Of a DNA stretch of 32,156 bases, positions 13,679 to 31,421 are shown one piece after another; position 1 is the stretch's first letter; each line of letters starts with the position of its first letter. This DNA is from Bifidobacterium breve (GTDB lineage Bacteria; Actinomycetota; Thermoleophilia; Gaiellales; F1-60-MAGs149). The stretch spans positions 1-32,156 of the forward strand of contig CAMDVX010000006.1 in NCBI GenBank assembly GCA_945877865.1, in the 5' to 3' direction. Under the pieces are notes generated by a model. The model was not told the DNA's origin and did not search any database. It saw only the letters and a list, made by a program, of their open reading frames with translations. Both the position numbers and the translations under genes were made by a program.

Positions 13679-15115
13679 ATGTTCACCAACACCTATCCAC
13701 GCCTTGAGCCCGTCACACCCGATGGTCTCGCCACGCTTGAGCGCGGCTGGATGCGGATCGTCTCCGAGCTTGGCATCCGCTTCGATCATCCGGAGGCCCT
13801 GCGGATTCTCCGCGAGGCAGGCCAGCGAATCGAAGGCGATATCGTGTTCTTTGATCCCGAGTGGGTGCTGGCGATGGTGGGGCAGGCTCCGAGCGAGTTT
13901 CAGCTGCGGGCACGCAATCCGGCGCACGACATCCGCATCGGCGGAGACGCGATGATCTTCGCGCCCGTGCAGGGACCGCCGTTCGTTCGACGCGGCTTGG
14001 AGCGCCGAGACGCCGTGCTGGCTGATCTCGACGATCTCTGTCGGCTTGTGCAGCACATCGACGACTTCGATCTCGCGGGCGGGTGGCCCGTCGAGCCGAA
14101 CGATATCCCGCTCGATTCGCGCCACCTTGATGCGCTGCGGAGCATCATGACGCTTACCGATAAGCCCGTCGGTGGCCACTCAATCAGCATCGCCGCCGCT
14201 GAGGACGGTCTCGCCATGGCGCGCATTGTGTTCGGCAGCCGGATCGACTCCGAAGCGTGCATCTACACGAACATCAACGTCAACTCGCCGCTCGTCTACG
14301 ACGAGCGCATGCTCGATACGCTCATCATCTATGCGCGAGCCCGGCAGCCCGTGCTCGTGGTGCCGTTCTTGCTGATGGGCGCGATGGCCCCTGCCAGCAC
14401 GATCGCTGCACTCGCTCAGCAGTTCGCGGAGGGCCTCACGGGCATCGCGTTGATGCAGGCGATCTCGCCTGGCTGTCCGGCAGTGCTCGGCTCATTTCTG
14501 TCTACGACAGATCTGAAGAATGGCTCACCTGCCTTCGGCGGTCCGGAGTCGCACTTCGGGCTGCTCGCCTCGGGCCAGCTCGCGCGCCGCTACAACCTGC
14601 CGTGGCGCGCAGGTGGCGGTGCGTTGACGTCGAGCCCCGTCCCCGACGCGCAGGCAGCGTGGGAGGGCATGAACACGATGCAGGCGGCGTTCCTCGCGGG
14701 CGCGAACTGGCACATGCACTGCGGCGGTTGGCTGGAGGGAGGGCTCGTCGCCTCGTTTGAGAAGCTCGTGATCGACCTCGACATGCTGCAGACGCTGATT
14801 CGAGAGTTCACGCCGATCACCATCGACGATGACGCGCTCGCCTTCGGCGCCCATGACGAGGTGCGGCACGGCGGGCACTTCTTGGGCGCGGCGCACACGA
14901 TGGAGCGCTTTCGCGACTGCTTCCACCGGCCGCTGCTGGCGACGACCAGCAACTATCAGCGCTGGACGAAGGACGGTGGCCTCGATGCAGCCGCTCGCGC
15001 CACCGGCGTCTACCAGCAAATGCTCAGGGAGTACACGCAGCCGCCGATGGATGACGCTATGCGCCTCGAACTCGACGAGCACGTGCTGCGTCGTCGTGCC
15101 GCGCTCGGTGACTAG
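13679..15115 (+). CDS. Trimethylamine methyltransferase (MttB)-family protein without an in-frame amber codon
   Basis: MttB-like features: LGIRFDHPEALRILREAGQRI…, GGPESHFGLLASGQLARRYNLPWRAGGGALTSSPVPDAQAAWEGMNTMQAAFLAGAN…EKLVIDLDML. RBS-like GGAG before ATG. Confidence 0.85.
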   Translation: MFTNTYPRLEPVTPDGLATLERGWMRIVSELGIRFDHPEALRILREAGQRIEGDIVFFDPEWVLAMVGQAPSEFQLRARNPAHDIRIGGDAMIFAPVQGPPFVRRGLERRDAVLADLDDLCRLVQHIDDFDLAGGWPVEPNDIPLDSRHLDALRSIMTLTDKPVGGHSISIAAAEDGLAMARIVFGSRIDSEACIYTNINVNSPLVYDERMLDTLIIYARARQPVLVVPFLLMGAMAPASTIAALAQQFAEGLTGIALMQAISPGCPAVLGSFLSTTDLKNGSPAFGGPESHFGLLASGQLARRYNLPWRAGGGALTSSPVPDAQAAWEGMNTMQAAFLAGANWHMHCGGWLEGGLVASFEKLVIDLDMLQTLIREFTPITIDDDALAFGAHDEVRHGGHFLGAAHTMERFRDCFHRPLLATTSNYQRWTKDGGLDAAARATGVYQQMLREYTQPPMDDAMRLELDEHVLRRRAALGD

Positions 15116-28601: not shown

Positions 28602-29726
28602 TCAGGGTGGTGGCGTGGTGCCCGTCCACGTTGACCACGCCGGCTTAGCCGAGCCGAGGGATCCGGTCGCTGCCGCTCGGTACAGCCCTGCGGATGGAGC
28701 GGCCGTAGTGTCCTTCAGGCCACTCCAGATTGCGATGCCAACGCGCGGATTAGCCGCGGCGGCAAGGAATGCACCGACAGCGGCGGACTGGCTCCCGTCA
28801 GACAACCCGGCCTCTGCGGGGCCGGATGGGACGCCGTAGCCGGTCAGCCAGATCGTCTTGCCGCCGCCTGGCCAGTAGGTATCAATGGCCGTGACTACCG
28901 CGGTGAAGTCGGTCAAGGAAAGATTGGCGGGGTCGGCCGCCGCTTCGAGGCCGCTTGGAGGTGACAGGCGAAGACCGATGGCATCGAACGTGACGCGGGT
29001 CCGTGCTAGGCCACGCAGAAATTGCAGCGCCGGCGTGTCAACCGTGGCTGCAGCGTCCGTCCGCGACAGGCCACCCGATACGATCGTGGCGGAGTACCCA
29101 CCTGCCGCGGCGACGCCGGCGAGCTCTGCTTTAGCCGTGGTCAGCAGCAGCCGGTAGAGCCCCGGTGCCACGAGCCGGGTCGCGATCCGCTGCGGTCGGA
29201 GTGACGCTGCGAGATTTGGCTGTGGCCAAATCTCGAACTGCGAGGCTCGCGGAAGCGCCGGACTCCCGTAGGTGCCGCTGTAGCGCTCCGCCACGGCGAA
29301 CACGAAGTTTCGCCACGCCACGCGCTTCGGCATCCACGCCGGATCGCCCGGGCTTCCGCCTGCGCCGCCGTCGTTGCGGGCCCACTCGGGAGTGCCACCG
29401 ATCGACAGCAAGACAGCCGCTCCGTTGGTGGCAGCAGCAATCATCCGTCGATCGACTGAGCGCCAGTCATAGCCGACGCTGTTCGGATTGCGCGGGCTCC
29501 GTGGCGTCGTGGCGGCGATGGCGGGCCAGCGTACGTCAATGCGGACGACGGGCGCAGCCAGCGACGCCACGGTCGGATCCGGCGGAAGACCGATGGCACG
29601 CCACGCGCTCGTCCCTGCGTCGTCGAAGCCGTCATCGTAGACCTGACCCAGCGTGGCGGCCGATGCGGTTCCGCTGAACGCCGCGATGACGACGATGGTA
29701 AGCAGGTTCCTCAGGGCCGATCGCAC
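28602..29726 (-). CDS. Secreted glycoside-hydrolase-like protein with substituted catalytic motifs (putative pseudo-glycosidase)
   Basis: Signal peptide VRSALRNLLTIVVIAAFSGTASA; GTPEWAR, FEIWPQPNLAASLRP and TIWLTGYGVPSG resemble clan GH-A EIWNEPN and LTEFGW positions, with E changed to Q and G. Confidence 0.75.
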   Translation of the reverse strand: MRSALRNLLTIVVIAAFSGTASAATLGQVYDDGFDDAGTSAWRAIGLPPDPTVASLAAPVVRIDVRWPAIAATTPRSPRNPNSVGYDWRSVDRRMIAAATNGAAVLLSIGGTPEWARNDGGAGGSPGDPAWMPKRVAWRNFVFAVAERYSGTYGSPALPRASQFEIWPQPNLAASLRPQRIATRLVAPGLYRLLLTTAKAELAGVAAAGGYSATIVSGGLSRTDAAATVDTPALQFLRGLARTRVTFDAIGLRLSPPSGLEAAADPANLSLTDFTAVVTAIDTYWPGGGKTIWLTGYGVPSGPAEAGLSDGSQSAAVGAFLAAAANPRVGIAIWSGLKDTTAAPSAGLYRAAATGSLGSAKPAWSTWTGTTPPP

Positions 29727-29732
29727 TGCCTC

Positions 29733-29738
29733 ATGGTA
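29733..29738 (-). promoter_or_regulatory. -10 box (TACCAT on - strand) 6 nt from GTG 29726
   Basis: TAnnnT spacing consistent with a leaderless transcript, as at several other genes in the window. Confidence 0.5.
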
Positions 29739-29771
29739 CTCCGAACTGCTGGTCCCCGAACGATTCGTGCC

Positions 29772-29777
29772 TATCCT
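29772..29777 (+). promoter_or_regulatory. -10 box (TATCCT) 6 nt from GTG 29784
   Basis: TAnnnT spacing consistent with a leaderless transcript. Confidence 0.5.
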
Positions 29778-29783
29778 CCGATT

Positions 29784-31421
29784 GTGATTCGTATCGCTCC
29801 AGCCAGAGCAGCAGCCTCCGTGCTCGCGCTGATCATGCTGCTTGGGGTCGTCAGTGCCGCGAGCGCCAACCCCGCTCGCGTGCACGGCAGCAGGATCCTC
29901 GACGGCGCCGGTCATCCGCTGGCGCTGCGTGGCATCAGCTGGGGCGGGGCTCGCTTCGTGCCTGTGGCCGCCGACCAGCCACGTGCGTCCATCGACATCG
30001 CGGACGCAGAGCGAGCGTTCAACCAGATTCGGCGGCTTGGCGGCAACGCCGTGCGCGTCGACGTGTCGAGCGCCCTCAACAGCGACCAAGGCCGCCTGGC
30101 GCTGCAGCAGCTGCAGGTGCTCACGCGCACGCGGAAGCTGGTCCTCTTGATCGCGAACGTGCCGCTCAGCGACACCGACCAGACGGCGTGGCTCCAGACG
30201 ATCGCCGGCTGGCTGGAAGGCAAGGAGAACGTCTGGTACCTACCCGAGGTGGATCCAGGGTGCTCGTTGCTCCAGACGGGCACCACGTGCGACGACGCGA
30301 CCAGCTGGGCGAGCTCGCAGGGCCGCAACATCGATGCTCTGCGCGGCGCTGGCGTCGAGACGCCCATCGTGGTCAACCTCCCGAACTCCTCGCAGACCGT
30401 GACGAAGCAGCTTGCGGCTCGGCTCGACCGCCGCAACGTGATCTTCGCAATTCATCCTCAACCCGGTCAGAGCCCACAGTTCACGAGCGCCGATGGACGC
30501 GCGCTGACAGCGACGCTTGCCGCGGTTGCCACGCAGGTTCCCGTGGTGCTCGACGACGTCGCGCGGGTGTCGACGGTGGTCGATCGGCCCACGGACAGCA
30601 CCCCCGGCGGAGTCGCCACAGCGCTGACGTGCGATCGGCTGCTGTGGGCGCAGGGTCTGCAGGATTGGCTGACGGGCTGGGTAGTCGCCGGCCCGGGCGA
30701 CGGCGCCGTGATCTCTGGCTGGGACAGCGGCACGCGCGATGACCTCAGCCGAGGGCGTGGCCTGTCGGCTTGGGGAAGCGCGGTGGCGAGCGGGTATCTT
30801 GCCGTCGGCTTCCGCGCGGCCTCCGGCCGCAATCCGCGCTCGGGCTTTCTTGGCGCGTTCCAGACAGGTGATCACGGGGTTGGTGTTCGACGGCTGCAAC
30901 GTGCGCTGCAGGAGCTAGGCATCCTCGACGGGCAGTACGTCAACGGCCTCTACGGTGATGCCACCTGGCAGGCCGTCGTCGGCTTCCAAGGCTACTCCGG
31001 CCTGGAGCGCACCGGGTTGGCCACTGCAGAGCTGGTGGCACAGATCCTCAGTGCAAAGCCTCCGACGCCGCAGCAGGGCGGGCCTGCTCACGTTGAGGTC
31101 GACATCACGCGGCAGGTGCTGCTGCTTGTCGATACGGGTGGGCGGGTCGTGCGCACGGTCCACGTCAGCACGGGTGCTACGGACAACACGCCGGACGGCG
31201 AGTTTCGCGTGTTCAGGAAGGAGCTGATGAGCTGGGACTACGCGTTCCACTTCTACCTGCCGTACGCCTCGTACTTCCACGGCGGCTTCGCCATGCACGA
31301 GTTTCCTGATGTGCCCGAGTATCCAGCGTCACATGGCTGCGTGCGGATTGCGTGGAGCGACTCCAAAGCGGTCTACGACTTCGCCGGCTATGGCATGTCG
31401 ATCTTTCTCTATCACTCGTGA
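29784..31421 (+). CDS. Secreted fusion: cellulase (GH5)-like domain + peptidoglycan-binding domain + YkuD L,D-transpeptidase
   Basis: Signal peptide; RILDGAGHPLALRGISWGGARF (GH5-like start); GVGVRRLQRALQELGILDGQYVNGLYGDATWQAVVGFQ (PG_binding_1); VEVDITRQVLLLVDTGGRVVRTVHVSTG…MHEFPDVPEYPASHGCVRI (YkuD with catalytic Cys). Confidence 0.85.
   Translation: MIRIAPARAAASVLALIMLLGVVSAASANPARVHGSRILDGAGHPLALRGISWGGARFVPVAADQPRASIDIADAERAFNQIRRLGGNAVRVDVSSALNSDQGRLALQQLQVLTRTRKLVLLIANVPLSDTDQTAWLQTIAGWLEGKENVWYLPEVDPGCSLLQTGTTCDDATSWASSQGRNIDALRGAGVETPIVVNLPNSSQTVTKQLAARLDRRNVIFAIHPQPGQSPQFTSADGRALTATLAAVATQVPVVLDDVARVSTVVDRPTDSTPGGVATALTCDRLLWAQGLQDWLTGWVVAGPGDGAVISGWDSGTRDDLSRGRGLSAWGSAVASGYLAVGFRAASGRNPRSGFLGAFQTGDHGVGVRRLQRALQELGILDGQYVNGLYGDATWQAVVGFQGYSGLERTGLATAELVAQILSAKPPTPQQGGPAHVEVDITRQVLLLVDTGGRVVRTVHVSTGATDNTPDGEFRVFRKELMSWDYAFHFYLPYASYFHGGFAMHEFPDVPEYPASHGCVRIAWSDSKAVYDFAGYGMSIFLYHS

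Follow-up and report, generated by a model that had tools for sequence, protein, structure and literature searches.

The chi-lectins, narbonin and XIP-I are GH18 pseudo-glycosidases that have turned into lectins. The two proteins described here resemble them in having kept a hydrolase barrel after its catalytic residues were lost, but they belong to clan GH-A, and we know of no transpeptidase fusion among chi-lectins, narbonin and XIP-I. The substituted GH45 proteins of Phytophaga beetles, in which a catalytic carboxylate has been replaced and which are inactive on the substrates tested (PMC6509783), are alike in that replacement but have another fold, come from another kind of organism and are without a wall-crosslinking partner. 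On the crosslinking side, the nearest relatives are the PG_binding_1-YkuD L,D-transpeptidases (LDTs) such as 4lpq from Xylanimonas cellulosilytica, which have no accessory domain or accessory domains of other kinds. Little is understood of what guides L,D-transpeptidases to particular sites in the wall, and a conserved pseudo-glycosidase placed before such an enzyme, with a second one beside it, would allow the idea of targeting through glycan recognition to be tested directly.

Such a pair lies near one end of the window, by which we mean the whole 32,156-nucleotide stretch analyzed (Table 1). The arrangement is real, conserved and specific to one genus of lake-dwelling, freshwater Thermoleophilia (lakes are named in several of its records), and it joins a PG_binding-YkuD transpeptidase with a putative pseudo-GH5 accessory domain to a putative pseudo-GH39-type neighbor. 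A partial search of the literature found no published description of an LDT arranged with a glycoside hydrolase or pseudoenzyme.

Table 1. Features of the divergent gene pair and of the intergenic region between its genes.
Feature	Position	Strand	Basis or remark
Left gene, putative secreted pseudo-glycosidase, GH39/Glyco_hydro_cc relative, 374 aa	28602..29726	-	homology, fold, orthologues in 13/13 species
Left Gly296, at nucleophile Glu position	28839..28841	-	WLTGYG vs W[IV]TE[FY]G in active relatives
Left Gln169, at acid/base Glu position	29220..29222	-	EIWPQPN vs E.WNEPN in active relatives
Left -10-like box, TACCAT	29733..29738	-	6 nt before left GTG, leaderless-type start
Right -10-like box, TATCCT	29772..29777	+	6 nt before right GTG
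Right gene, putative secreted GH5-like pseudo-glycosidase / PG_binding_1 / YkuD fusion, 545 aa	29784..31421	+	domain and fold matches
GH5-like domain, residues 31-353	29874..30842	+	hhalign, Foldseek; found only in genus
Right Asp157, at GH5 acid/base Glu position	30252..30254	+	YLPEVDP vs GH5 ..NEP; Asp invariant in genus
Right Asp258, at GH5 nucleophile Glu position	30555..30557	+	VPVVLDD; Asp/Asn/Ser among orthologues
PG_binding_1, residues 366-420	30879..31043	+	E=3.6e-8
YkuD L,D-transpeptidase domain, residues 435-538, SHGCVR (Cys519 at 31338-31340)	31086..31397	+	Pfam, PDB match, invariant residues

An open reading frame check found the two divergent frames, with GTG starts at 29726 (-) and 29784 (+) separated by 57 bp, and signal peptides were recognized by eye at both N-termini, all as an earlier note on this DNA had described. 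That note had also given each gene a TAnnnT box exactly 6 nt upstream of its start. This is true of both genes in the window, but comparison with the genus relatives retained only half of the claim: the left box, spacing and start are kept in 14 of 14 copies, as one would expect if the gene were of the leaderless type of Actinomycetota, whereas the right arrangement is confined to the window genome. Neither the window's intergenic region nor the orthologous ones place a Shine-Dalgarno sequence at the proper spacing from the right start. Many orthologues of the region 29727-29783 share a conserved block, ATACC..GGGAGGAGAC (+ strand), beside the left box, and a conserved CGAA lies further along.

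Taken alone, the left protein has a weak resemblance to GH39 (4ekj in the PDB, E=0.002; Pfam GH39, E=0.2), and Pfam, NCBIfam and PADLOC scans assigned it no confident family. A profile built from the 14 genus copies and set against 35 relatives from the same order gives a full-length alignment (hhalign E=1.3e-48); some of these relatives pass the Pfam cut-offs for Glyco_hydro_cc and Cellulase, and a fold search with the predicted model (mean pLDDT 61, pTM 0.68) returned PslG as the best match (E=9e-8), followed by many clan GH-A enzymes. The left protein thus has the full-length family homology and the GH-A barrel of the GH39/Glyco_hydro_cc (PF11790) hydrolases, PslG included, but unlike them it has lost both catalytic carboxylates. 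The acid/base position holds Gln, Ser, Asn or Ala in all 14 genus copies (EIWP[QSNA]PN) and the nucleophile position Gly, once Asp (WxT[G/D]Y), so that neither Glu occurs in any of them, whereas both occur in 35 of 35 relatives. The same 14 copies, which form one clade (100% SH-aLRT), have RLxP in place of the HPY motif of the cleft.

Loss of catalytic Glu is not in itself proof of sugar binding, and with HPY gone from the left cleft as well, the barrels may bind no glycan at all, being instead an inert fold reused as a protein-protein scaffold or regulator, with the left protein docking, for example, on its right neighbor or on proteins of the divisome or envelope. A conserved Trp in the last strand, which may be structural, would fit such a role. 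The motifs at the C-terminal strand ends, the part of such a fold that receives ligands, are nevertheless strongly conserved in the genus, and we consider a pure scaffold unlikely.

The left protein also has relatives that look active elsewhere in the same genome. One genome of the genus carries two in tandem with both Glu kept (G000:C4 22951-25230; L090:4937-7495), and similar tandems are found in other species of the genus. Genes next to the active-looking relatives (carotenoid, molybdopterin, lipase and 3D-domain genes) do not indicate a single polysaccharide cluster.

The N-terminal 320 residues of the right protein are related to GH5 both by profile, when a broader GH5 set is used (hhalign 96.8%, E=2e-10), and by predicted structure (Foldseek, GH5 endoglucanases, E=3e-8); the domain alone falls below the Pfam threshold. 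Against the genus's own GH5 enzymes only, the alignment is limited to the N-terminal third. With the broader set it spans the acid/base residue and reaches the nucleophile through a low-confidence extension, and because the nucleophile assignment depends on that extension together with the VPV motif of the strand, the acid/base is the more secure of the two. The domain shares the N-terminal signature and fold of GH5 cellulases and mannanases (PF00150) but differs from them in that both catalytic Glu are replaced ([VT]DP instead of NEP at the acid/base; VPV..D[DNS] at the nucleophile) and in a second barrel half that is divergent and poorly predicted. Since residues 256-356 of the model have pLDDT < 50, the domain may not form a complete barrel.

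Invariance of both Asp157 and Asp257 among the orthologues is what one would expect if the domain had remained a hydrolase that uses Asp157 as acid/base and either Asp257 or Asp258 as nucleophile, which would make the right protein a bifunctional glycan cutter and crosslinker. A proton donor can in some cases change between Glu and Asp without loss of activity, as active GH45 xyloglucanases with an Asp-to-Glu change at this position illustrate (PMC6509783), so the right domain could possess weak activity. On the other hand, orthologues have Asp, Asn or Ser where the nucleophile aligns, and the Asn that GH5 enzymes conserve before the acid/base has been lost; a cutting role for this domain strikes us as very unlikely. 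The genus separately encodes apparently active secreted GH5 enzymes with NEP and GEFG motifs (L061:507-2894, L062:3170-5617, L063:3113-5416, L064:4110-5729; G000:C1 70098-71036), three of which end in C-terminal repeats resembling cellulose-binding modules.

The transpeptidase half of the right protein is readily recognized. Its YkuD domain (PF03734) scores 55.3 bits against a curated cut-off of 23.4; His505, His517, Gly518, Cys519 and Arg521, comprising the catalytic HGC and Arg, are invariant in the orthologues; and the LDT part matches the solved enzyme 4lpq (E=2e-21), with which it shares domain order, an intact SHGC-R and ~31% identity. The activity predicted for such a domain is 3-3 crosslinking or the anchoring of lipoproteins. 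What sets the right protein apart from such enzymes is the N-terminal GH5-derived barrel. In sister lineages and other families the PG_binding-YkuD enzyme has no recognized N-terminal domain or a Germane domain, and because this LDT exists in sister lineages with Germane or nothing where the barrel would be, the barrel is best regarded as an accessory module. The genomes of the genus have 2-5 YkuD matches each, the right protein included, which makes it one of several YkuD proteins in the cell. For the right orthologues in three species (G003, G007 and G008; L077, L081 and L082), the GH5-like and transpeptidase halves give discordant trees and identities (80% vs 56% between G003 and G007; 79% vs 59% between G008 and G009), a pattern suggesting that species of the genus have exchanged the transpeptidase half.

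The domain reading of the earlier note is therefore sound on both sides of the intergenic region: the left gene is glycosidase-like with changed motifs by sequence, profile and fold, and the right one carries a GH5-like domain with changed motifs (hhalign, Foldseek), the changes recurring in every genus relative on both sides; behind that domain come PG_binding_1 and a YkuD motif that is intact (domain scan, invariant residues). Profiles and structure prediction place both proteins in clan GH-A, and no correctly positioned catalytic Glu was found elsewhere in either. The note's functional proposal, that the barrels act as polysaccharide sensors or targeting domains directing 3-3 crosslinking, is a hypothesis. 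The note's expectation that relatives would retain the pair has to be narrowed from Thermoleophilia at large to a single genus, in which 13 of 13 species have it in the same divergent arrangement, interrupted by contig ends only. The right GH5-like domain, present in all 13 genus genomes, was absent outside the genus among 399 genomes of the class and 397 of the phylum, and searching 84,980 species genomes for it returned 13 loci, matching the genus members already found. Within the genus, the left protein has an NG86 dN/dS of ~0.08-0.29 and the right protein, taken in its two parts, one of ~0.05-0.46 (some dS values are saturated), and on these values (~0.05-0.46 overall) both are maintained proteins. 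The dN/dS values rule out a pseudogene reading of the pair, and conservation in 13 species rules out chance.

That the two genes stay side by side says less about partnership than one might think, because the whole neighborhood, APRT-GNAT-left-right-dnaE, is syntenic across the genus, so that adjacency is inherited as a block; sister genera keep pgsA-FHA-MerR-APRT-GNAT, and the pair is not beside it. The genes may accordingly be neighbors without a joint function, an LDT with its accessory domain next to an unrelated pseudo-hydrolase. We regard this as somewhat unlikely, given that the catalytic residues missing from the two proteins are those of one broad kind of enzyme, that both look secreted and that a single short divergent promoter region serves them both. 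It also touches the partnership alone, and can be reconciled with a docking role for the right barrel.

Our preferred reading, which we hold to be evenly balanced between right and wrong, is that a lineage-specific pseudo-glycosidase in front of the transpeptidase and a separately secreted one both serve as glycan-binding or docking parts. According to this model, an ordinary secreted PG_binding-YkuD L,D-transpeptidase would have acquired an N-terminal GH5-derived barrel in the ancestor of the genus, and a secreted GH39/Glyco_hydro_cc-type hydrolase would have come to lie divergently beside its gene. Both barrels have lost their glycosidase catalytic residues, as the residue comparison across the genus shows, while remaining under purifying selection. 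The right barrel may have become a lectin-like docking module that, with PG_binding_1, holds the transpeptidase at glycan-marked sites in the wall. The left protein would be a glycan binder secreted separately, its ligand perhaps the same as that of the right barrel or a neighboring wall or surface polysaccharide, and the two would probably be co-expressed from the shared 57-bp region. A more ambitious version, that a pair of clan GH-A hydrolases, inactivated independently and acting one in cis and the other in trans, constitute a secreted two-part glycan-reading device siting LDT crosslinks in the wall, seems to us rather unlikely. The pair is also a clear natural example of catalytic residues being lost from two hydrolase families while selection continues, and the order offers many active-looking relatives for comparison.

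Elsewhere in the window (13679-15115), an open reading frame resembling the trimethylamine methyltransferase (MttB) family runs without an in-frame stop, as judged by eye. Two copies of the pair (G006:C10 and G006:C69; L097 and L098) occur in one MAG recorded as Bifidobacterium breve, the genes of which are those of the Thermoleophilia genus: the record is mislabelled, and the bin is perhaps mixed.
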